Source: Streptomyces formicae
GTDB taxonomy: Bacteria; Actinomycetota; Actinomycetes; Streptomycetales; Streptomycetaceae
Direction: 5' to 3'
DNA length: 64,000 nt
NCBI RefSeq assembly: GCF_002556545.1
Contig: NZ_CP022685.1
Location: 9,340,001 to 9,404,000 of the forward strand
The first letter of the stretch is position 1; each line of letters starts with the position of its first letter. The notes beneath the pieces are model-generated. The model was not told where the DNA came from, ran no database searches, and saw only the letters and a list, made by a program, of their open reading frames with translations. The position numbers and the translations under genes were made by a program. Below are positions 25,269 through 38,214 of this stretch, in pieces.

Positions 25269-25826
25269 TTACCTGCCGTGAAGTTCCAGGGGGGAACCCA
25301 CCCGCGCCGCGATCGTCCGCGCGCAGGTCAGGGACTCGGCGTGCGTCGTGTCCACCTCCAGGTCGTAGCTCACGCCGTCGTGCGCCAGGCGCGCCTGCGA
25401 CGCGGCCATTCCCTTGGCGCGGTCTCCCCGCGCGACCTCGCGCGCCGAGGCGACCTCGCTGTCGCATCTGACGCCGACCCAGAGCACGTTGAGCTCGCCG
25501 ACGGCCTGCCGCCACCGCTCCTTGCTCGCCGCGCCGCCGAGGAAGACGTCGTCGACGATGACCCGCGCGCCGGACCTGGCCATCGCCACGATCCCCGCCA
25601 TCCAGGCCGCCTCCAGCGCCCGGAAGTCGGCCCCGATGCTCACCCCGCCGTCCGCTTCGAAGCCGATCCCGTCGTCCGACATCTGCATCTTGACGGGCAT
25701 CGCTTCGATCAGCGAGTCGATCCCGAACGCCAGCCAGGGATCCGGGAGTACGTCCTGGAGGCAGCGCACGATTCCTGTCTTCCCCGAGCTGGAACCGCCG
25801 TTGAGAATGATCATCCGAGTCGTCAC
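25269..25826 (-). CDS. Chloramphenicol phosphotransferase-like protein
   Basis: A 185-residue P-loop kinase of the chloramphenicol phosphotransferase family, which can inactivate chloramphenicol by 3'-O-phosphorylation in producers. Walker A is [16 protein letters not shown]. The catalytic-type Asp follows in [12 protein letters not shown], with IVDDVFLGG and a lid-like Arg segment [18 protein letters not shown]. The first codon is GTG at 25826; the ATG four codons later is also possible. It diverges from cobF with 74 bases between. Drug specificity cannot be read from sequence. Confidence 0.85.
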
Positions 25827-26827: not shown

Positions 26828-26843
26828 GCCCCAAATGTAGTGT
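26828..26843 (+). promoter_or_regulatory. NrdR-box-like site 2
   Basis: GCCCCAAATGTAGTGT matches about 11 of 16 positions of the NrdR box, with a perfect TAGTGT right half. It is followed directly by a cobalamin-riboswitch-like leader and an nrdG remnant, which supports a ribonucleotide reductase promoter. Confidence 0.5.
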
Positions 26844-27354
26844 GACGGACGTCGGTTCGGCGACGGCGGCGTTCCTGCGCCGGCGGCCGAGACATCAGGG
26901 AATCCGGTGCGAATCCGGAGCTGCCCCGGGCAGGCTGGTCACCACCGTCTTCTGCCAGGGCTGCCCGTGGCGGTGCGGGTACTGCCACAACCCGGAACTG
27001 CTCGACGCGCGAGTGCCTCCCGCGGTCCCGTGGGAGGCGGTGGCCTCCCATCTCGGGCGCCGCCGCGGCCTGTTGGACGGCATCGTCTTCTCCGGCGGGG
27101 AGCCGCTGCTGCAACCCGGTCTGGCGGACGCGGCACGGGCGGCGCGCTCGCTGGGGTACGCGGTGGGGCTGCACACCGGCGGCGCCTACCCCCGCAGGTT
27201 CGGCGCGCTGCTCGACTCGGGCGTCGCCCACCAGATCCGCACCACGGTGGACCCCGCGCTCCTCGACGAGAGGGACGTGACCGCGCTGCGGGAGTGGCTG
27301 GCGGGGCGCGGGGTGCGCGAGCACGTGTGGCAGTCGGTCCGGTGCGGCTCTTGA
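26842..27354 (+). pseudogene. nrdG: Truncated nrdG, anaerobic RNR activase remnant
   Basis: An open frame of 170 codons whose first 29 codons are translated riboswitch DNA. From residue 30 on it is clearly the radical-SAM activase of class III ribonucleotide reductase: GRLVTTVFCQGCPWRCGYCH with the CX3CX2C cluster motif (Cys41, 45, 48), then IVFSGGEPLLQPGL. The normal N-terminus (DWPG motif) is absent. The C-terminus stops early at GVREHVWQSVRCGS, where relatives continue. The only in-frame start, GTG at 26842, sits inside the putative NrdR box and has no ribosome site. No nrdD is present. It is most likely a non-functional deletion relic. Confidence 0.75.
26848..26927 (+). ncRNA. Cobalamin riboswitch, 5' half only
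   Basis: The stretch 26898-26927 contains the conserved GGGAATCCGGTGCGAATCC and then GGAGCTGCCCC. This is the core of adenosylcobalamin riboswitches as found upstream of streptomycete nrdABS. A GC-rich hairpin ending in GCCGAGACAT precedes it, as expected for the P3 arm. The 3' half (GCAACTGT/GCCACTG elements and the kissing-loop hairpin) is missing. Instead the sequence runs straight into nrdG coding sequence at GGGCAGGCTGGTC. It is best read as a deletion-truncated riboswitch. Confidence 0.7.
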
Positions 27355-27427: not shown

Positions 27428-28072
27428 ATGTCGAGAGGCGCTGGAGCGGGCGAGGCGAGGCGGGTGAGCCCGGTGCGTACGCGCGTGCTGTCCGGGCGCG
27501 AGGTCCTGTCGCACGGCGAGGCCATCCACGCGGTGTACCTCGATGCCTTCGGAGGGCCTCCCTGGCACGAGGACGTCACGCACGCCGACGCCTATCTGAG
27601 CCGACTGGCGCTGGACGCCGACCGGAGTGGATTCCTCGCCGTGGCGGCCTTCGCGGGAGACGACGGGGGCGACGGTGAGGGCGAGGGCAGCGGGGGTGGC
27701 AAGGGTCGCATGAGGGGCTTCTGTACCGCCTGGACCACGCCGTCACCCTTCCCCGGTGGCCGCAGCTATCCGCTGGTCGCCGCCGCGCTGGGACCGAGAC
27801 GTACGGCCGACTGGTTGTGCGGGAGCCAGGAGATCGACGAGGTCGCCGTCCGCGCGGAGGAGCGCGGCGCGGGCCTGGGCGCCGCACTGGTGGGTGAGGT
27901 GACGCGGCACGCCCCCGCGGGCGCCGCCTGGCTGATGACGTCCGTCGGCGCGGAGAGCGCCGTGCGCTTCTACCGGCGCCTGGGCTGGCGGCAGGTCGGC
28001 CACCCCGCTCCCGGCGGGTCGGGCGTGGCGGTCTTCCTCGGTCCCGATCACCCCGCCGACCTCACTTTCTGA
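27428..28072 (+). CDS. GNAT-family N-acetyltransferase
   Basis: A 214-residue acetyltransferase. The ATG at 27428 follows GGGGGAG with normal spacing. The core shows IDEVAVRAEERGAGLGAALV, where the acetyl-CoA pyrophosphate loop normally reads Q/RxxGxG/A, and a C-terminal SAVRFYRRLGWRQVG. An acidic glycine-rich insert (DDGGDGEGEGSGGG, about residues 80-95) interrupts the N-terminal sheet. Its 3' end overlaps the convergent signal peptidase gene by 11 bases. The substrate is unknown. Confidence 0.85.
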   Translation: MSRGAGAGEARRVSPVRTRVLSGREVLSHGEAIHAVYLDAFGGPPWHEDVTHADAYLSRLALDADRSGFLAVAAFAGDDGGDGEGEGSGGGKGRMRGFCTAWTTPSPFPGGRSYPLVAAALGPRRTADWLCGSQEIDEVAVRAEERGAGLGAALVGEVTRHAPAGAAWLMTSVGAESAVRFYRRLGWRQVGHPAPGGSGVAVFLGPDHPADLTF

Positions 28073-28571
28073 TCCGGCGCGTGACCCGGGGGCGGGCGCG
28101 CAGGACGACTCCCAGGACGCGCGTCACGGGGAAGTAGCCCAACTGCCGTGAATCGACGCTGTGGTGGGGGTTGTCGCCCAGCAGGACGAGGTGGCCGGGC
28201 GGCACTGGACCCGTGGGGAGCGGCGGCGGCCCGGGTGGGTCTCCGGGGGTCGCGCCCACGCGTTTGATCATCCACTGGCGGTCGGCCACGGCAGGGGCCC
28301 GTGCGGCCGGGGCCAGCGGCGGCCCCGGCCAGCGGTGGCCCGCACCAGGACGTTCCACGACGATGACCCGTCCGGTGGCGAAGGCGCTCGTGCGCAGCCG
28401 CAGGCGCAGCACCAGGACGCGGTCGCCGTCGCGGTAGGCGGGTTCCATGCTCCGGCCCCGCACCGTCACCGAGACCAGCGCGCCGCGCGCGAGTACGGCG
28501 GCTGTGAGCACCGCGCCCAGGGCGCCGACCGCGCCGAGGACCCGCCGGATCTTCGGGCTCGGGCTGGTCAT
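28062..28571 (-). CDS. S26-family signal peptidase in Cys-rich peptide cluster
   Basis: A 169-residue type I signal peptidase-like serine protease. One N-terminal membrane segment (about 10-35) anchors it. The nucleophile Ser41 is in VRGRSMEPAYRDGD, the general base Lys103 in WMIKRVGATPGDPP, and the box E-like LLGDNPHHSVDSRQLGYFPV is near 130-150. The catalytic dyad is intact. It is shorter than housekeeping SipW-type enzymes in its proline-rich loop. The ATG overlaps the ABC transporter stop (ATGA), so it belongs to the same operon. Likely job: processing the cluster's cysteine-rich peptide. Confidence 0.9.
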   Translation of the reverse strand: MTSPSPKIRRVLGAVGALGAVLTAAVLARGALVSVTVRGRSMEPAYRDGDRVLVLRLRLRTSAFATGRVIVVERPGAGHRWPGPPLAPAARAPAVADRQWMIKRVGATPGDPPGPPPLPTGPVPPGHLVLLGDNPHHSVDSRQLGYFPVTRVLGVVLRARPRVTRRIRK

Positions 28572-30427
28572 TGGTCGGCCGCCCCCGCCGTGCTCGGTTC
28601 CGTCTCCTGGCGGTAGCCCGACGCCTGGAGGCTGAACAGCCGGGCGTACCGGCCGCCGGAGGCCAACAGCGCGGCGTGGTCGCCCTGTTCGACGACTCTT
28701 CCTTCGCTCAGGACCGCGATGCTGTCGGCGTCCCGCAGCGTGCCCAGCCGGTGCGAGATGAGCAGGCTCGTGCGCGCCCTGCGGTGTTCCCGCAAGGAGG
28801 CGTGGATCTCGTGCTCCGCCGCGGCGTCGAGGCCCGCCGACGGCTCGTCGAGGATCATGAGGTCACAGCGGTGGCGCAGGAACGCGCGGGCCAGCGCGAG
28901 GCGTTGCCGCTGGCCGCCCGAGAGCGTCACGCCCTCCTCGGGGCCGTGGTCACTGTCGGAGGTCATGAAGAAGGTCCTGGTCAGCAACGTGCCGTAGCCG
29001 TGGGGGAGTGCGGTCAGCGCCTCGTGGATGCCGGATCGGTGCGCGGCGGCCCGCAGCCTCGGCTCGTCGTCGAGCGCGTCCAGGTCGCCCAGGGCGATGT
29101 TCTCGGCGGCCGTCATGTCGTAGTGCATGAAGTCCTGGAACACGGCGCCGATCCGCCGCCGCAACTCCGTGGGATCGGCCTCCCGGATGTCCGTCCCGTC
29201 CCACAGGATCGCGCCCCTCGTCGGATCGTAGAAGCGGCACAGGAGCTTCACCAGGGTCGACTTCCCCGCGCCGTTCAGGCCGACCAGAGCGAGCGAACCG
29301 CCGTACGGAACATGGAGCGTGACCCCGCGAAGCACCCAGGGGTGCGCGGGGGAGTAGCGGAACCACACGTCCTGGAGCGTGATGCCGTCACGCAGCGCGG
29401 GGAGCGGGCGCGGCGCCGGAGCGAGCGGCAGGTCGGGGTCGGCCCTGGTGACGGCGAGGTAGTGGCCGAACAGTTGCAGCGCCTGGTGGGACTGGGCGAT
29501 CTCGCTCGCGACGGTGGCGAGCGCGCCCTGCATTCCGGCGATCGCGGCGATGAAGATCGTGATGTCGCCGACCGACAGCACGCCGCGTTGCGCCGCCGCG
29601 GCCGCCCACACCAGTCCCGTGCCGGAGACCAGCGCGGCGAGCGCGGCGAGACCGGCCTGGACGGTGACGTCCCTGCGGTCCATGGCCCGTTTGGCGGTGT
29701 TGGCGGTACGGCGCTCCGCGAGCATCCGCCCGCGCAGGAAGGCACCGATGCCGTAGAGCCGTATCTCCTTGGCCGCCGCCACGCTCGAGAGCAGGTCGTT
29801 GTAGAAGAACTCCCGCCGCTCGACCGGACCGATCTCCCAGATCATCCGGGCCCTGCGCCGCGACAACTGGATTTCCGCGACGAGCATCGGGACCCCGGAC
29901 AGCAGGAGCAGCGCGGCCATGACAGGGCCGAGCAGGAAGAGCGAGCCGAGGAACCCGCTCAGGGTGAGCGCGGACCGTGCGACGTTCAGGAACCCGCACA
30001 CCACGTTGTTCGGGTTCATGCCCGCGGTGGGCTGTGCCAGCCGCAGCCGGTCGAGGAACAGCGGATCCTCGAACCGGGCGAGGCCCACCTGCCGGTCGGT
30101 CGCCGTGAACAGCCGCTCCTGCGTGAGCAGTCCGACCTCGCGGTCGAGCTCCGCCCGCAGGTACTGCAGGAGTTGGGGAAGCAGCGCGGCGACCAGCCCC
30201 ACGGCGCCGAGTCCCGTGGTGAGCGCGATGAGCGTGTCGCGCGGGCCGTGGTGGACCAGGTTGTCGATGACCAGCTTCATCAGCCAGGCCGATGCCACCG
30301 GCGCAGCGCTGGTGAGGAGCGTCAGGAGGGTGTGCGCCGCGAAGGCGGCGGGCGCGGCACGGGCGCTGAGGGAGACGGCGGCGACGACGTGACGGGCCCG
30401 GAGCCGAGGAGTACCGCCTTCGCTCAT
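28568..30427 (-). CDS. ABC exporter (fused TMD-NBD) of Cys-rich peptide cluster
   Basis: A 619-residue half-exporter: a six-helix membrane domain (about 1-330) then the ATPase domain. Walker A GLNGAGKST is at 383-391, the signature TLSGGQRQRL at 501-510, Walker B LMILDEPSAGLD at about 523-534 and the H-loop in SLLISHRLG. All ATPase residues are intact, so a homodimer should be active. There is no C39 peptidase domain; the coupled S26 protease may take that part. Start and stop overlap the neighbours by ATGA on both sides. Export of the peptide encoded at 31674-31889 is inferred from the operon. Confidence 0.92.
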   Translation of the reverse strand: MSEGGTPRLRARHVVAAVSLSARAAPAAFAAHTLLTLLTSAAPVASAWLMKLVIDNLVHHGPRDTLIALTTGLGAVGLVAALLPQLLQYLRAELDREVGLLTQERLFTATDRQVGLARFEDPLFLDRLRLAQPTAGMNPNNVVCGFLNVARSALTLSGFLGSLFLLGPVMAALLLLSGVPMLVAEIQLSRRRARMIWEIGPVERREFFYNDLLSSVAAAKEIRLYGIGAFLRGRMLAERRTANTAKRAMDRRDVTVQAGLAALAALVSGTGLVWAAAAAQRGVLSVGDITIFIAAIAGMQGALATVASEIAQSHQALQLFGHYLAVTRADPDLPLAPAPRPLPALRDGITLQDVWFRYSPAHPWVLRGVTLHVPYGGSLALVGLNGAGKSTLVKLLCRFYDPTRGAILWDGTDIREADPTELRRRIGAVFQDFMHYDMTAAENIALGDLDALDDEPRLRAAAHRSGIHEALTALPHGYGTLLTRTFFMTSDSDHGPEEGVTLSGGQRQRLALARAFLRHRCDLMILDEPSAGLDAAAEHEIHASLREHRRARTSLLISHRLGTLRDADSIAVLSEGRVVEQGDHAALLASGGRYARLFSLQASGYRQETEPSTAGAADQ

Positions 30428-30963
30428 GCCGCTGAGGACGGCAGGTGTTCCAGGTCGACGCGGGCGTCCGCGACGATCGGGTGGCCCGAGCCCTGGACCG
30501 AGACCTTGAGGATCGAGGGGAACGCGGCGATGGCGAAGGCGGAGCCGACGGCGCCGTTCTGGCCCTCCGCCACCACCTGGGCGACGGGCTTCAGCCGGGC
30601 CACGAGATCGGCGGTGCGCCGCGGGTCGCCCACGACGGCGGCGAGGACGCGGGCGCGGCCGCCGGGCACGGCCTTGGCGAACTCCACGAACTTGGGGAGC
30701 TGCTCGGCGCAGGCAGGACAGCCGGGCGAGAAGAACCCGACCAGGGTGTCGTCCGTCAGGCCGCTCCTGCTGACCTCCGTGCCGTCCACGGCGACGGCGG
30801 TGAAGTCACCTACCGTCTCGCCGACTCCGAGGGAGGCGCGCCCGTTGAGCGCGCCGAGCAGCTCCGTGTGTTCACGCAGCCGTTTGATGACCCCCAGGCT
30901 GAGGATCAGGTCCAGGGTGCAGAGCAGACCGACGAACACGACGGCTGTGATCAGGAACGGCAT
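30424..30963 (-). CDS. Membrane-anchored TlpA/MauD-like thioredoxin
   Basis: A 179-residue protein with one N-terminal membrane helix (about 3-25) and an extracytoplasmic thioredoxin-like domain. The redox motif is FFSPGCPACAEQLPKFVEFA with Cys82 and Cys85, and the cis-Pro lies in AIAAFPSILKV. Together with the upstream MauE-like gene it mirrors the mauE-mauD pair, which helps form the many disulfides of methylamine dehydrogenase small subunit. The ATG at 30963 has GGAG seven bases upstream. The stop overlaps the ABC exporter start. Predicted role: oxidative folding of the cluster's Cys-rich peptide. Confidence 0.85.
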   Translation of the reverse strand: MPFLITAVVFVGLLCTLDLILSLGVIKRLREHTELLGALNGRASLGVGETVGDFTAVAVDGTEVSRSGLTDDTLVGFFSPGCPACAEQLPKFVEFAKAVPGGRARVLAAVVGDPRRTADLVARLKPVAQVVAEGQNGAVGSAFAIAAFPSILKVSVQGSGHPIVADARVDLEHLPSSAA

Positions 30964-31045
30964 GGCTTCTCCAACCAATTGAGGACGTTCGCCACTTGGG
31001 TCGCGGGGTCGCGGGGTCGCTTGGGTCGTTGAGGCGGGCGCCGGA

Positions 31046-31579
31046 TCAGCGCACCGGTGTCCGTACCGGACGGAACAGTTCGAGAAGGTCGTCGAGCAGG
31101 ATGACGAGGCCCGCGAGGCAGGCCCCGGCGAACAGGGCGGCGGCGATCGCCGCCCCGCCGTTCGCGGCGCCGTCGGACAGCAGTACGCCGGCCTCACCGA
31201 CCAGCGCGCACCCGGCCAGGAGCACGTTCCGCACCACGTGTTCGCGCCCCAGCGGTCTGCTGGAGGCGCCGAAGCACCGGCACGGGACCGCCGCACCACG
31301 CCGCAGCGTGCCGACGATGCCCGCGACGAAGGCGACCAACAGGCCGCAGGCCAGCGGGAACCCGAGGGCCGGAGCGAGTACGAGGAGCAGCGGTACGGCG
31401 AACTCGGCCGCGACCACGAGCCGCGCCACCAGCGGTACCAAGGGCCCGGGTACGGCCCCCATGGCGTCGACGGACGCCCTGAACGCGTGGAGGCGCCCAC
31501 GACCGGCGACCTTGCTCGACGCCGAGGCCAGGAACACGACGCCGATGAGGCATCGCAGCGCCAGGGTCACGTACGGCAC
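31046..31579 (-). CDS. MauE/DoxX-like redox-associated membrane protein
   Basis: A 177-residue membrane protein with four to five helices. It begins YVTLALRCLIGVVFLASASS followed by KVAGRGRLHAF, the start typical of MauE. A periplasm-facing CRCFG motif (VPCRCFGASSRPLGREHVVRN) provides a CxC pair that could pass electrons to the thioredoxin-like partner encoded next. MauE is needed in methylotrophs for maturation of a disulfide-rich subunit. No other methylamine genes are present, so a role with the Cys-rich peptide just upstream is more likely. Confidence 0.85.
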   Translation of the reverse strand: MPYVTLALRCLIGVVFLASASSKVAGRGRLHAFRASVDAMGAVPGPLVPLVARLVVAAEFAVPLLLVLAPALGFPLACGLLVAFVAGIVGTLRRGAAVPCRCFGASSRPLGREHVVRNVLLAGCALVGEAGVLLSDGAANGGAAIAAALFAGACLAGLVILLDDLLELFRPVRTPVR

Positions 31580-31623
31580 GCGGAATCCCCTCTGTCCGAA
31601 CGGGAGTTGTGTGCGTTCGCGTA

Positions 31624-31656
31624 CCGGGGCGGGGCGCGTTCGCTGCCCCGCCCCGG
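31624..31656 (-). terminator. Intercistronic hairpin after the Cys-rich peptide gene
   Basis: A perfect 12-bp stem (CCGGGGCGGGGC and its complement) with a 9-base loop lies 17 bases past the peptide stop, before mauE. Such hairpins after precursor genes let most transcripts stop or stabilise the 5' message, so the peptide is made in excess over its machinery. Confidence 0.75.
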
Positions 31657-31673
31657 CAGCTCATCGGGTCACG

Positions 31674-31889
31674 TCACGGGCACTGGTTGCAGCTACAGCT
31701 GTAGCGGTCGCCGCCCACGGCGCAGCACGGCGCGTTGCAGCTGCACCTGCCGTCCTTGTGGCCGTACAGCTTGTTGCACTGCCAGCAGGCACCCCAGCAC
31801 TTCTGGATGTCACCCGCGGCGGCCGCGTCCACGGAGGGGACGAACAGGCCGAGCAGTCGGCTGCCCATCGACTCTATCGATGCGAACAT
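31674..31889 (-). CDS. Cysteine-rich secreted peptide precursor (10 Cys)
   Basis: A 71-residue peptide. The ATG at 31889 follows a near-perfect SD (GAAGGAGGTG). Residues 1-25 (MFASIESMGSRLLGLFVPSV, then DAAAAG) look like a leader that could be cut at an Ala-rich site. The remaining 45 residues hold 10 cysteines: KCWGACWQC, GRCSCNAPCC, YSCSCNQC. Two Trp lie beside the first cysteines. Downstream genes encode MauE-like and TlpA-like redox proteins, an ABC exporter and a signal peptidase, so this is probably the substrate, a disulfide-rich secreted peptide. It is not recognisably MauA, although the Cys density and partners are reminiscent. Whether it is an antimicrobial, a signal or a metal-binding peptide cannot be told. 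Confidence 0.72.
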   Translation of the reverse strand: MFASIESMGSRLLGLFVPSVDAAAAGDIQKCWGACWQCNKLYGHKDGRCSCNAPCCAVGGDRYSCSCNQCP

Positions 31890-31892
31890 GTG

Positions 31893-31902
31893 CACCTCCT
31901 TC
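31893..31902 (-). promoter_or_regulatory. Very strong ribosome binding site
   Basis: On the minus strand this reads GAAGGAGGTG, ten bases nearly fully complementary to the 16S rRNA 3' end and placed just before the ATG at 31889. It is stronger than any other SD in the window and fits high expression of the peptide. Confidence 0.75.
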
Positions 31903-32007
31903 TGCTTGGGAACATGTGGGGAACTCGGAACTGCGCGTCCCACCCTGCTTCTCGGCGCATCGATGGGTCTTGAAGAAATTCGCACCGCGTGCCGACCGGT
32001 CACCGCG

Positions 32008-32781
32008 TCAGCCGTAAGCGGCCACCAACTGCCCCGGCGTGCGGCCCGTCATCGTCTTCACCTCGCGGCTGAGGTGGGCCTGGTCGCTGAAGCCGCACCG
32101 TGCGGCGATGTCGGCGAGCCCGCCGCCCCGCGCGAGGAGCACCAGGGCGCGCCGCAGCCGGACGACGCGGGCCGCCGTCTTCGGGGCCAGGCCGATCTGC
32201 TGACGGAAGCGGTAGTCGAGGCGCCGCCAGCACCAGCCGGTCTGCTGGGCGAGGTGCTGGATGGGCACGGTCCCGCCGGTGCGGCGCACCGTCAGCCAGG
32301 CCCGCACCAGCTCCGGCGAACAAGCCTGCCCGGTCGTGCTCCAGCCGCTGAGCGTCCGGTCGAGTACGGCGAAGCGCTCGGGCCACGAGGTCGCGGTGGC
32401 GAGCGCGCCGTGGAGCGCCTGGAAGCGAGTGCCGAGCACGGGGCCGGGCGCCACGACGGAGTCGGTGATCTTGTGCATGGCGGTGCCGAAGAGCGCGAAG
32501 GCGGCCCAGGGTTCGAGCAGGACGTCGAGGGCCCACGACTCGGCGGGGCGCGGGACGGCCCGCGCGTGGGTGGAGAGTCCGGCCACGAACGAGGTGAACT
32601 CCCTTTCCCCCGTGCGGCCGAAGCCGAGGCGGAGGGTCACCGCGTCGGGCCTCAGCTCGGTGACGGCGGGAGGCCCGCCGTGTCCCCGATAGCAGAGCAC
32701 CCCCGGTCGTAACCGAGGGTGTATGTCCATCTGTGCGGCTTGCCGGTACAGGTCGTGCGATGCGCGTACGTCATGGACCAT
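32008..32781 (-). CDS. AraC-family regulator of the Cys-rich peptide cluster
   Basis: A 257-residue AraC/XylS regulator. The ATG at 32781 is chosen over the GTG at 32817 because GGGGGAG lies six bases upstream. The C-terminal double HTH reads WRRLDYRFRQQIGLAPKTAA, then GGGLADIAARCGFSDQAHLS and REVKTMTGRTPGQLVAAYG. The N-terminal half is an unrecognised sensor domain. It is the nearest upstream gene to the peptide gene (118-base gap, same strand), which makes it the likely activator. It may instead be the first gene of the transcript. Confidence 0.88.
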   Translation of the reverse strand: MVHDVRASHDLYRQAAQMDIHPRLRPGVLCYRGHGGPPAVTELRPDAVTLRLGFGRTGEREFTSFVAGLSTHARAVPRPAESWALDVLLEPWAAFALFGTAMHKITDSVVAPGPVLGTRFQALHGALATATSWPERFAVLDRTLSGWSTTGQACSPELVRAWLTVRRTGGTVPIQHLAQQTGWCWRRLDYRFRQQIGLAPKTAARVVRLRRALVLLARGGGLADIAARCGFSDQAHLSREVKTMTGRTPGQLVAAYG

Positions 32782-33035
32782 CCCTGTCTCCCCCGCGACG
32801 GGTACGCCGGTGTTCACGTCACCACGGGCGAAAAGCTACGTAGGGAGGGGAGGAGTCGCGTCAACTCCCGGTTGGAGATGGGGCGTAAACCTCTGAGGTA
32901 GATGGGGTAAACCCAGGCCGGACCCGGCGGGCCGGAACGTGTCCCTCGGGGCGGTCGGGGGCCCGGGGTAGGGTGGGTGTTCGTTTCCCGCGCCCACCCG
33001 CACGCTGTCGTGCCCGAGCACGACAGGTATGTGAC

Positions 33036-34582: not shown

Positions 34583-36481
34583 TCAGCCTCCGTCGTGGGC
34601 CGGGGCGGCGTCGCGCTCGCCGGACCAGGCGGCCCACAGCGTGGCGTAGGCCCCGCCCGCGTCCTTGAGCCGCTCGTGCGGACCGCTCTCGACGACCCTG
34701 CCGTGTTCGAGGACCACGACCCGGTCGGCCGTGGCGGCCTGCGTCAGGCGGTGGGCGACGATCAGCGCGGTGCGCCCGTCGAGCGCCGCCCGCGCCGACC
34801 GCTCCAGGAGGCGCGCGCCCGCGCTGCCCGCTTCCGCCGTCGCCTCGTCGAGTACGGCGACGAGCGGGTCGGCGAGCACCAGCCTGGCCAGGGCCAGTTG
34901 CTGGGCCTTGGCCGCGTCGAGGCTCCGCGCCCCCTCACCGACGACGGTCTCCAGACCGTCCGGCAGCGCTTCGGCCCAGGCCAGCGCGTCGACGGTGGCG
35001 AGCGCCGCCCGCAGCTCCTCGTCCGTCGCGCCGGGCTTCGCCAGGCGCAGGTCGTCGGCGAGCGTTCCGGCGAAGACGTGCAGCTCCTGCGAGACGAGTA
35101 CGGCCGCGGGCCTGCCGTCGGCACGGTCCGCCGCCCTGACACGGCCGTGCGTGGGCGGCTGCACCCCGGCGAGGATCCGCGCGAGGGTGCTCTTGCCCGC
35201 GCCACTGGTGCCGACGAGCGCGACGTGCTCGCCCTCGCGCAGGGCGAGGTCGACGTCGTGCAGGACGGGGGTGCCGGTGGTGTAGGAGTGGCTGACGGCG
35301 TGGACGGAGACGAAGGCGTCGTCAGGGGCCTCGGCAGTTCCCCGCACGGCCTTGCGCTCGGTCTCCCTCTCCACGGGCAGATCCGTGACGCCCACGAGCC
35401 GGGCCAGGCCCGCGGTCGCGGACTGGGCGTCGTCGAGCAGGACGAGGGCTGCGTTGATCGGCCCGAAGAGATTGTGGAAGTAGAGCGCGGCGGCCGTCGC
35501 GGTGCCCACCGACACGGCGTCCTCGCGGACCAGGACGAGCCCGGCGAAGAGCACGCCGACCAGACCGATGTACTCGCCGATGTGCAGCCGCCCGTAGAAC
35601 CCGAGCACCAGGCGCACGCCGCGCAGCCGCAGGCCGACCGCCTCGCGGGAGCGGTCCGCGACGCGCTCGGTGTGCTCGTCCTCCAGGAGGTGGGCGCGCA
35701 CGGTGTCGGCCCCGCCGATCGTCTCCAGGAGTTGCTGCTGCTGCGCGCCGGTCGCGACGCGCTGGCGCGAGTAGAGCGGGACGGCCCTGCGGACGTACCA
35801 CTGGGCGGTCCACGCCTGCACGGGTACGGCGAGCAGCGCCGCGAGCAGGAAGCGCCAGTCGAGCACGGCGAGGGCGACCAGGGTCAGCACGATCGTCAGC
35901 GACGAGCGGGCCAGCTCGGGCAGCGCCGAACGCACCGCCTCCGACATGCGGGCCACGTCGTCGGTGACGCGCGCGGTGAGGTCTCCCGCGCCCGCGCGTT
36001 CGATGCGGTCGGCGGGCAGGTTCAGGGCCCGTTCGACGAACCGCTCGCGCACCCGGGCGAGGACGGACTCGCCCAGCTTGGCGACCATGCTCATGCCCAG
36101 CGAGGTCGCGGCTCCCTGCACGAGTGCCACGACGGCGAGCAGCACGACGGGCAGTGTCAGCACGGAGGGCGACACGGTGCCCGTGCCCTTGGCGGCATCG
36201 GTCACCAGGTCCACGATCCGGCCGAGCAGGGGCTGGGTGAGCAGCCCGACGGCGGTCGCGGCGACCAGGACGAGACCCGACCGTACGGCCAGACTCCGGT
36301 CGGGGCGCAGCAGTTCGAGCGCGGCGGCGCGGGTCCTGCGGCCGGTGGCGGTGGGCAGTAGGTCGGTCGCGGGGGCGGTCGAGAGGCCCGGCGATTCCCG
36401 CGGTGCGGGGCGCTCGGTGGGCTCGGTGGAGCCGGTCGGCTCGACGGGCTCGGTGTCCTGCACTCGGGATGTCGCGCTCAT
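34583..36481 (-). CDS. Iron-regulated heterodimeric ABC exporter, subunit with intact Walker A
   Basis: A 632-residue half-exporter with a Pro/Thr-rich N-terminal tail, six helices (about 60-330) and an ATPase domain. Walker A GTSGAGKST and Walker B VAVLDEAT are intact. The signature LSGGQ is replaced (SLDAAKAQQLALARL) and the D-loop is altered (AEAGSAG). Its partner at 36478-38214 has the opposite lesions, so together they make one working and one dead ATP site. The ATG overlaps the partner's stop (ATGA). An iron box precedes the operon, suggesting a siderophore-related transporter, either importer of IrtAB type or exporter. Confidence 0.9.
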   Translation of the reverse strand: MSATSRVQDTEPVEPTGSTEPTERPAPRESPGLSTAPATDLLPTATGRRTRAAALELLRPDRSLAVRSGLVLVAATAVGLLTQPLLGRIVDLVTDAAKGTGTVSPSVLTLPVVLLAVVALVQGAATSLGMSMVAKLGESVLARVRERFVERALNLPADRIERAGAGDLTARVTDDVARMSEAVRSALPELARSSLTIVLTLVALAVLDWRFLLAALLAVPVQAWTAQWYVRRAVPLYSRQRVATGAQQQQLLETIGGADTVRAHLLEDEHTERVADRSREAVGLRLRGVRLVLGFYGRLHIGEYIGLVGVLFAGLVLVREDAVSVGTATAAALYFHNLFGPINAALVLLDDAQSATAGLARLVGVTDLPVERETERKAVRGTAEAPDDAFVSVHAVSHSYTTGTPVLHDVDLALREGEHVALVGTSGAGKSTLARILAGVQPPTHGRVRAADRADGRPAAVLVSQELHVFAGTLADDLRLAKPGATDEELRAALATVDALAWAEALPDGLETVVGEGARSLDAAKAQQLALARLVLADPLVAVLDEATAEAGSAGARLLERSARAALDGRTALIVAHRLTQAATADRVVVLEHGRVVESGPHERLKDAGGAYATLWAAWSGERDAAPAHDGG

Positions 36482-38214
36482 GCGAGGACCGCCGTCCGGT
36501 AGAGGGAGCTGCGCCGCACCAGTTCCTCGTGGGGCGCCTCGTCGGCGAGCCTGCCGCCGTCGATGAGGGCGACCCGGTCGGCGACGGCGAGCAGCGCGGG
36601 GCTGCTGGTGACGAGGACGGTGGTGCGGCCGCGCCGCAGCTCCCGGATGCCGGTGGCGATACGGGACTCGGTCGCGGCGTCGATCGCCGTGGTCGGGTCG
36701 TGTACGACCAGGACGTCACGGTCGGCGGCCAGCGCGCGGGCGAGTGCCACGCGTTGGCGCTGCCCGCCCGACAGGGACCTGCCGCGCTCGCCGACCGGCG
36801 CGTCGAGACCGCCGGGCAGCGACGCGGCGACCTCGTCGGCGCCCGCGGCGGCCGCTGCCGGGTGGGTGCTGTCGCCGATGGCCGTGATGTTGTCCCGGAG
36901 CGATCCGGCGAACAGCTCGGCACCGTGCTCGGCGACGAGGACGCGCGAGCGCAGGCTGCGCGGCGCGAGGTCGGTGAACGGCACGCCGTCCAGTTCGAGG
37001 CGGCCCGCATCGGGGTCCACGCGGCGCGCGAGACAGCGGACGAGGGCGTCGGCGTGGGCCGGTTCCGTGACGACGACGCCGACGAACTCGCCGGGGGCGA
37101 CGGTCAGGTCGACGCCGTCGAGCCCCTCGTGGACGAGCCCGGACAGCCGGAGGGAGCCGCGCGGTGCGTCGTCGGCGGAGCCGGTGTGGTCGGCACCGGC
37201 GCTGACGGAACCGTCCGCCCCGGCGATGTCCCCCGGCGTGCCGAGCACCTCGGCGACGCGGCCCGCAGAGGCGCGGGAGCGGGCTACCTCCGCGGCCATC
37301 CACGACATCACCTGCAGCGGGCCCGGAATGAACAGGGCGAGACCCACGGCCGCCACCAGTTCGCCGAGTCCGATGCTGCCGGACAGCACGAGCCGCCCGC
37401 CCACCAGGGCGACCAGCGCGATGAACACGCCGGTCAGCGCCTGCATCAGGCCGGTCTGCACCGCCTCGGCGCGCGCCGCGCGCACCGTGGCGTCGAGCGA
37501 GGCGCGGCTGGTGCGCCGGTAGCGGTCCGACGCGGCGCGCTGCGCGCCAAGGCCCTGGAGCACACGCACCCCCGCGACCAGGTCGGCGGCGACGCCCGAT
37601 GCGTGGGCCGCGCGCTCCTGCTCGGCGTGGCTGCGGTGTTCGAGCGGACGGGCGAGCAGCTGACCGAGTCCCATGAGCACGGGGGTGCCGAGCAGGATGA
37701 GCAGGCCGAGCGGGACCGAGGCGCGCAGCAGCAGGACCGCTCCTGCCGCGAGGCCGACGGCGGCGGAGAAGCCGAGCGGCAGCACGAAGGCGACCGAACC
37801 GGCCCGCCGGGCGTCCTCGGTGGCCACGCTGACCAGGGCACCGGGCGGCCGCCCCGTGGAGGCGCCGCCGCGCGGGTCGAGCACCCGGCGCATCAGGCGC
37901 ATCCGCAGGCCGTGCGCCGCGTACTCCTTGGCGTACTCCCCGGCGCGGGAGCCGAGTTGGAAGCCGCCGGAGAGGAAGACGTAGACGACGGCGAGGACCA
38001 GGGCCCAGCGCGCGAAGGAGGCGACGTCGGGGTGGACGATCGCGCGGTCGACGATGACGCCGATGAGGACGGGGATGAGCGCCTCGCCGATCTGGTGCGA
38101 GGCGCCGAGCACACAGCCCGCCGCGACGCGCCGCCGCTCACCCGCCACCACGCCCCGCAGGACGTCACGCCCGCTCCGGCGTGCGTCGTCGTGCATTCCG
38201 CTCTCTCTTTCCAC
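36478..38214 (-). CDS. Iron-regulated heterodimeric ABC exporter, subunit with degenerate Walker motifs
   Basis: A 578-residue half-exporter. The membrane domain occupies about residues 20-310. In the ATPase domain the P-loop is destroyed (GEFVGVVVTEPAHADALVR has no GxxGxGKS) and Walker B reads VLVVHDPTTAID, with His-Asp where Asp-Glu is expected. The signature RSLSGGQRQRVALARAL is intact and can serve the partner's Walker A. The start is 19 bases from a 19-bp iron box, so expression should rise under iron limitation through DmdR1/IdeR. Its TGA overlaps the next subunit's ATG. The substrate is unproven. Confidence 0.9.
   Translation of the reverse strand: MERESGMHDDARRSGRDVLRGVVAGERRRVAAGCVLGASHQIGEALIPVLIGVIVDRAIVHPDVASFARWALVLAVVYVFLSGGFQLGSRAGEYAKEYAAHGLRMRLMRRVLDPRGGASTGRPPGALVSVATEDARRAGSVAFVLPLGFSAAVGLAAGAVLLLRASVPLGLLILLGTPVLMGLGQLLARPLEHRSHAEQERAAHASGVAADLVAGVRVLQGLGAQRAASDRYRRTSRASLDATVRAARAEAVQTGLMQALTGVFIALVALVGGRLVLSGSIGLGELVAAVGLALFIPGPLQVMSWMAAEVARSRASAGRVAEVLGTPGDIAGADGSVSAGADHTGSADDAPRGSLRLSGLVHEGLDGVDLTVAPGEFVGVVVTEPAHADALVRCLARRVDPDAGRLELDGVPFTDLAPRSLRSRVLVAEHGAELFAGSLRDNITAIGDSTHPAAAAAGADEVAASLPGGLDAPVGERGRSLSGGQRQRVALARALAADRDVLVVHDPTTAIDAATESRIATGIRELRRGRTTVLVTSSPALLAVADRVALIDGGRLADEAPHEELVRRSSLYRTAVLA

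Follow-up and report, generated by a model that had tools for sequence, protein, structure and literature searches.

What does a gene set make that joins a small cysteine-rich peptide to a MauE-like protein? MauE is best known from methylamine dehydrogenase. The question was raised by a 64,000-nucleotide stretch of the Streptomyces formicae genome (contig NZ_CP022685.1, positions 9,340,001 to 9,404,000; G000:C1), here called the window. An earlier note on this DNA had described six same-strand genes, encoding a regulator, a peptide, a MauE-like membrane protein, a MauD/TlpA-like thioredoxin, an ATP-binding cassette (ABC) exporter and an S26 protease, as a dedicated system for a secreted peptide. 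All six genes were present on the minus strand; the genome is a single contig of 9.61 Mb, and the locus is about 240 kb away from its end. Judging from sequence, we consider it quite likely that this cassette is a leader-guided, self-contained system for making and secreting one ribosomal, disulfide-rich peptide, similar to the ribosomally synthesized and post-translationally modified peptides (RiPPs).

The precursor gene (31674..31889, minus strand) encodes 71 residues. A leader (residues 1-24) ending V-P-S-V-D-A-A-A is followed by a predicted mature part (residues 25-71) with ten cysteines at positions 31, 35, 38, 49, 51, 55, 56, 65, 67 and 70. The length and the number of cysteines were as the earlier note had given them, but the cysteines span 40 residues instead of the 45 claimed. 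A strong, near-perfect ribosome site, AAGGAGGTGCACATG, precedes the gene. One protein search returned six homologues at E ≤ 1, the best at 3.9e-34 with 83% identity. Because of the strong ribosome site and the conserved homologues, the frame was taken as a real gene and not a chance one. A wider profile found 38 proteins at E ≤ 0.1 and a second profile found 31; the hosts of the relatives include Streptomyces, Micromonospora, Nocardiopsis, Amycolatopsis, Microbispora, Embleya and Actinorhabdospora. When genomes were searched, the peptide profile matched in 26 of 392 Streptomyces genomes and in 13 of 394 genomes class-wide. The window's peptide matched no Pfam or NCBIfam family at E ≤ 0.1, and a faint match was seen for one of 26 relatives in each library. 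A sequence search of the PDB gave no convincing relative. In six loci (L112, L113, L121, L128, L129 and L182), two or three precursor genes of the same type stand in tandem by one set of machinery genes.

We next turn to the conservation of the cassette. A MauE search of the 392 Streptomyces genomes at E ≤ 1e-10 gave matches in 71 genomes at 89 places, of which 80, from 67 genomes, were taken. Left out were the window's own locus, the second G137 copy, three G166 rows, G386:C159, G310, G276 and G081. TlpA, ABC and S26 genes on either strand were counted up to 6 kb from MauE, and the precursor anywhere in the stretch (mostly about 13 kb). As a result, TlpA and ABC genes were both found by MauE in 71 of 80 loci, with S26 as well in 61 of the 71, and the MauE-TlpA-ABC set occurred in 61 of the 67 genomes taken. 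A precursor was present in 66 of these 71 loci, 62 by profile and 4 by eye; the leader profile behind the 62 had been extended with 17 leaders from the same loci, and the count is descriptive, not a test. The four found by eye (L120, L121, L135 and L160) lie on the other strand or farther away. In 55 of the 71 loci, the precursor gene shared the strand of MauE and lay no more than 1.5 kb upstream of it. Homologous loci do carry a Cys-rich short gene, and it is kept beside mauE, as the proposal of the earlier note would have it. An earlier leader profile, partly built from some of the same genomes, had located a leader in 42 of 80 loci at a distance of up to 1.5 kb upstream of MauE. Among the nine loci without TlpA or ABC, one has a peptide; this is L114, in which TlpA is present and the contig ends before ABC.

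The gene order was variable. In some loci, S26 is encoded on the opposite strand or at another place, and TlpA precedes MauE in others. Therefore, the association is not only a matter of inherited operon order. On three Streptomyces plasmids, a leader peptide, MauE, TlpA, ABC and S26 genes are adjacent with a regulator beside them; TlpA was confirmed by profile in all three, and an integrase or transposases stand alongside in two. A class-wide MauE search matched in 98 of 394 genomes. Matches above 100 bits were confined to the window's own genus and to one further family (f17), and a genome often had several of them; G514 has eight MauE matches, four of them above 100 bits. The class-wide loci comprised only about 3.5 kb. 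We looked at 26 of the 28 new ones, the other two lying within stretches already covered, and a leader peptide was found in 16 of these 26 short loci. Cassettes with different cores were present within one genome, for example in G474, G542 and G684.

Leaders were then compared in 119 distinct peptides. The consensus was approximately M-x3-L-x2-(L/M)-G-(S/D)-R-L-L-x-R-(F/L)-V-P-x3-A-x-A. The leader ended in P-x3-A-x-A in 110 peptides and in P-x2-A-x-A in one more; the motif P-x(2-4)-A-x-A was present in 111 of 119 leaders compared to 7% of shuffled leaders, and seven of the eight leaders without it keep AxA in about that position. AxA is the motif classically associated with type I signal peptidases. 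The cassette brings a type I signal-peptidase-like enzyme, and the leader ends in a type I signal-peptidase motif. Charged residues were found at leader positions 4-18 in all 119 peptides, where a Sec signal would be hydrophobic, and the best 12-residue hydropathy had a family mean of 0.84 (range -0.16 to 1.95). Judged from charge and hydropathy, the 24-residue leader does not look like a typical Sec signal. As in RiPPs, a gene-encoded precursor with a conserved leader and a variable core lies beside processing genes.

The cysteine content of the peptides was examined in core clusters defined at 60% identity. The number of cysteines was even in 64 of 66 core clusters and in 117 of 119 peptides; the 66 clusters had 62 different spacings. 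The remaining frames of these loci with 4-10 Cys served as a control and were even in 65% (n=1981; P=2.4e-10). Later sets were even in 25 of 26 peptides (close relatives of the query set; the odd one is P0075, with 5) and in 10 of 10 new peptides read by eye. The odd counts in the catalogue were L093 (7) and L043a (7, one of them inside the leader). Among the 24 peptides of the window's subfamily, 13 have both C51 and C70, and 11 have neither. C31 and C56 shifted together in three, and an additional pair was gained jointly in two. Because both cysteines of a pair change at once, the comparison points to C51-C70 and C31-C56 as disulfides. These results support well the earlier proposal of a dedicated unit in which the peptide has its own redox, export and cleavage proteins. 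When only core cysteines are counted, L093 alone in the catalogue has an odd number; a sequencing error, a free thiol and a dimer are indistinguishable there.

The leader and the core evolve differently. Across the 66 core clusters, leader identity was 0.375 (0.198 when shuffled), and core identity was 0.310 (0.288 when shuffled with the cysteines kept). In 55 loci, machinery identity was correlated with leader identity (rho 0.62; divergent pairs 0.59) and much less with core identity (0.23; 0.17). This is expected if the machinery reads mainly the leader. In 20 locus pairs, the ratio of nonsynonymous to synonymous substitution rates (dN/dS) was 0.26 for the leader (95% 0.16-0.42) and 0.66 for the core without cysteines (0.47-0.94); for TlpA and MauE it was 0.41 (0.35-0.46) and 0.48 (0.43-0.53), respectively. 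Aligned core cysteines were kept at 181 of 184 positions in 24 peptide pairs. In the pair L115/L116, the leader had no amino-acid change, core dN was 0.34 at a dS of 0.12, and TlpA dN was 0.06. The pair L086/L099 showed the opposite, with a leader dN of 0.21 and a core dN of 0.06. The faster change of the core under a conserved leader fits the pattern of antagonistic peptides. In L115/L116 very similar machinery is combined with strongly different cores, and P0062, P0066, P0067 and P0071 extend this series.

The machinery proteins were examined individually. The MauE/DoxX-type membrane protein (31046..31579, minus strand), with CxC at 100-102, matched PF07291 at 81.4 bits (cut-off 27), as the earlier note had named it. 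Its AlphaFold2 model (pLDDT 87.9) was best matched by NACHO/TMEM35A, a receptor assembly factor; this modelled likeness of fold proves no function. From hydropathy and charge, about five membrane segments were placed; the loop that joins the third to the fourth is positively charged and contains the CxC. The next gene (30424..30963, minus strand) encodes a membrane-anchored TlpA/ResA-like thioredoxin with CPAC at 82-85 (AhpC-TSA, 27.3 bits, cut-off 26) and an N-terminal 19-mer with a Kyte-Doolittle (KD) value of 2.58. Its profile matched ResA/StoA-type and other thioredoxin-fold solved structures. The TlpA part of the earlier assignment thus held, but the MauD part was rejected because the curated model TIGR02661 gave 15.5 bits against a cut-off of 188.6. 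The active sites of these two proteins were conserved in all cassettes (MauE CxC 71/71; TlpA CxxC 71/71).

The ABC exporter predicted in the earlier note was also present (28568..30427, minus strand; ABC_tran, 103 bits, cut-off 25). It is a half-transporter with a transmembrane and an ATPase part and without a C39 peptidase domain. Walker A was found in 70 of 71 cassettes and LSGG in all 71. The bacteriocin_ABC model matched the exporter only from model position 472 on. We rejected a C39 double-glycine exporter of the peptidase-containing ABC transporter (PCAT) type, as the Pfam scan showed no C39 domain and the leader ends in AxA, not GG. The S26 signal-peptidase-like protein (28062..28571, minus strand; Peptidase_S26, 66.7 bits, cut-off 22.9) has one N-terminal hydrophobic segment and is the proposed leader peptidase. 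Its translation contains the intact dyad that had been noted, Ser41 (GRSMEP) and Lys103 (MIKR). Cassette S26 proteins had the Ser motif in 59 of 61 and the Lys motif in 60 of 61. The protein reached 64.3 bits with TIGR02227, the bacterial type I signal peptidase model (cut-off 47). A role as maturation protease of nickel superoxide dismutase (NiSOD) was rejected (TIGR02754, 36.9 bits, cut-off 63.25). As claimed, the last three genes are joined through ATGA overlaps, one for TlpA/ABC and one for ABC/S26. Apart from the cassette, four tandem S26 genes and three VKOR places were found in the own genome; therefore, the cassette parts are additional to the general ones and do not replace them.

Upstream of the peptide gene, an AraC-type regulator, probably pathway-specific, is encoded at 32008..32781 on the minus strand (Pfam HTH_18, 59.6 bits, cut-off 33.6), with an alternative GTG start at 32817. 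Sister loci, too, have AraC relatives upstream of the peptide gene. By clustering, AraC genes were found in 11 of 80 loci and BTAD genes, similar to Streptomyces antibiotic regulatory proteins (SARP), near the cassette in 26 of 80. The 94-nt gap between the peptide and MauE genes (31580..31673, minus strand) has a strong GC hairpin (-49 kcal/mol) that lacks a U-run. The corresponding gap of sister loci folded better than mononucleotide shuffles, at z<-2, in 31 of 54. The hairpin probably sets the expression ratio of peptide to machinery.

Sequence comparison shows a conserved unit, a leader with AxA, even and paired cysteines, kept active-site residues and a faster evolution of the core. Under the mechanism that we propose, the membrane machinery would recognize the leader, and the ABC exporter would carry the unfolded precursor outward. 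The membrane-bound S26 protease would then cleave after A24, at the AxA motif, to give a 47-residue peptide with a predicted monoisotopic mass of 5047.96 Da with five disulfides. TlpA, its redox state maintained by MauE, would form or reshuffle these disulfides. The core could diversify freely while leader and machinery would co-evolve. An antibiotic or toxin-like role is our preferred guess for the peptide, with a probability of about one half; it is favoured because of the core diversification, the regulators by the cassette and the carriage on plasmids.

Several observations weigh against this reading. No precursor was recognized in five of the 71 loci (L089, where MauE is at the contig edge, L109, L125, L136 and L152), and ten of the 71 cassettes had no S26 match nearby. 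The window's own leader has a 12-residue hydropathy of 1.66, near Sec-like values. P0030 keeps C31 without C56, an exception to the co-movement, and the paired cysteine changes represent few evolutionary events. When a CS-alpha-beta defensin fold was asked of the peptide, the structure model was poor (pLDDT only 51), and no fold was derived. The dN/dS of the core was below 1 overall, with positive selection suggested in single pairs only. No conserved immunity gene was seen near cassettes, where very short genes could be missed. By the positive-inside rule, the charge of its loop places the MauE CxC on the cytoplasmic side, which misfits a simple outside oxidase; the positive-inside rule may fail here, or else electrons could be relayed through the membrane by MauE. 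ResA, among the TlpA relatives, is a reductase.

These points bear on other explanations. The peptide may be a signal or developmental peptide of the producer (a pheromone) rather than a weapon, with core divergence reflecting signalling specificity. Regulators adjoin the gene in about half of the loci, and the lack of a visible immunity gene would fit such a role. However, no recurrent neighbour cluster resembled a sensor kinase or receptor by eye, and the cassettes with different cores in one genome, the eight matches in G514 and the plasmid cassettes argue against it. We regard a signal as unlikely. It is less likely still that the cysteines bind metal, as in metallothioneins or copper peptides, with MauE and TlpA keeping them reduced in a cassette that secretes a metallophore. 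The many CxC motifs in the peptides, the reductase among the TlpA relatives, the cytoplasmic placing of CxC and a faint match of MauE to HvfX, a maturation protein of copper-binding RiPPs (NF050144, 18.6 bits, below the cut-off of 80), are in its favour. The even cysteine numbers, the 62 spacings and the paired gain and loss nevertheless agree better with disulfides than with a single metal site. Beyond the parts named, no enzyme gene is common to most cassettes, although multinuclear non-heme iron-dependent oxidative (MNIO) enzymes were not searched for. It is highly improbable that the peptide is a structural or enzyme subunit whose maturation resembles that of the methylamine dehydrogenase small subunit: MauE with a thioredoxin partner is found as in mau clusters (for the role of MauE there, see PMC7794033), but the cores have little in common across clusters beyond Cys, the TlpA protein fails the MauD model, and the dehydrogenase light chain PF02975 had no match in the own genome, although the 14 control genomes lacked one too.

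For the preferred reading, a disulfide-rich secreted peptide with its own machinery, likenesses were found in several known systems. Sublancin has the cluster thiol oxidoreductases BdbAB, but it is a glycocin and its machinery differs. Cinnamycin has an AxA leader cleavage site, but it is a lanthipeptide, again with different machinery. The closest description was in decRiPPter (PMC7794033, 2020). The sections consulted list three MauE-containing candidate RiPP families, one with MauD, whose precursors have at least 8 Cys; they are predictions without experiment, and a role for MauE in RiPP modification is suggested. These families share with the cassette MauE, no other mau genes, Streptomyces hosts and a Cys-rich precursor, and the filter also required transporter, regulator and peptidase genes. 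Compared by description only, they differ in that those sections give no leader rule, AxA site or wider family, and precursors of the cassette family with 4 or 6 Cys fall outside the description. In open-licence PMC, only PMC7794033 among the matches listed dealt with MauE and Cys-rich precursors, and no experimental report was seen; in the part of PMC13192320 examined, MauE is an author name, and this source was rejected. The earlier statement that no such system had been described was softened because PMC7794033 has the idea in print as a prediction.

Other systems share single steps, according to the portions of the papers examined. TMcins (PMC13252029) have leader removal by a dedicated membrane protease, a cluster thiol oxidoreductase for a disulfide, which can be required for it, and ABC export. 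They differ in a precursor with a transmembrane helix and one disulfide, an S2P-type intramembrane protease and a DsbA-type oxidoreductase. LPP peptides (PMC13381572) use a signal-peptidase-like enzyme, an archaeal-type signal peptidase I (SpI), as RiPP leader peptidase; that paper states that SpI-like peptidases were undescribed in RiPP pathways before its SipW-type case. That case, however, is from Bacillota, has RiPP recognition element (RRE) domains and makes a linear polyphosphorylated peptide, and the text never uses the word disulfide. Actifensins (PMC6989792) are actinobacterial precursors with leaders and variable 6-Cys disulfide cores, with ABC genes near and several copies per genome, but they are defensin-like with another leader, a GA motif before the cut and a subtilisin-like protease; the text examined names no MauE, thioredoxin or S26 gene. 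What is new here, on present comparison, is the unification of the family, the leader with its AxA rule, the cysteine parity, the covariation and the core diversification.

The cassette family may well come to be recognized as a separate class. It is an evenly balanced prospect that actinobacteria hold a large uncharacterized class of hypervariable disulfide-rich peptides, made on one platform of a non-Sec AxA leader, ABC, S26 and a MauE-TlpA pair that accepts very many 30-60-residue cores with even cysteine numbers. If true, the platform would be a bacterial conotoxin-like system and a ready-made, leader-programmable route to disulfide miniproteins. With a common precursor front and very different end products, related actinobacterial cassettes would resemble the venom-peptide families of animals. 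Such a route would then be encoded in about 16% of the Streptomyces genomes sampled (61 plus the own, of 392), and 66 core clusters are in hand from a modest sample. MauE would gain a testable wider role in thiol chemistry, and signal-peptidase cleavage of an atypical leader would join the bacterial modes of peptide export. The cassettes would be a source of stable peptide scaffolds, which RiPP detectors built on known modifying enzymes may overlook.

Some related loci had unusual content. In L153, L154, L156 and L158, a ThiF-family gene (PF00899, 130 bits for the L153 copy) and a gene for a membrane protein of about 405 residues lie near the cassette; the L158 copy of the latter had no Pfam match. 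L160 has only the ThiF gene of these additions. L153, L154 and L158 also have a second peptide of 46-47 residues with a common motif, IEIRLLDKIETI. The additions in L153, L154, L156 and L158 are possibly a second RiPP pathway grafted on. In L030, the leader peptide runs on as a 140-residue open reading frame with 7 Cys, with ABC and S26 matches close behind and no MauE or TlpA match among those listed for the locus. Neither this frame nor a 47-residue frame with 3 Cys in L146 was included in the peptide catalogue. Also outside it are short Cys-rich frames that lack a recognizable leader and precede a related MauE gene in L152 (about -275 to -101, counted from MauE) and in L155 (about -346 to -85).

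In the window, the cassette is flanked by a GNAT acetyltransferase gene on the opposite strand and a SulP-type transporter gene, neither obviously related to it. Two adjoining ABC exporter genes with a 4-base overlap (34583-38214, minus strand), probably encoding a heterodimeric exporter, have no obvious tie to the cassette. A short radical SAM/4Fe-4S protein of 170 residues is encoded at 26842-27354 on the plus strand (PF04055, 46 bits), and a chloramphenicol-phosphotransferase-like protein at 25269-25826 on the minus strand (PF07931, 225 bits).

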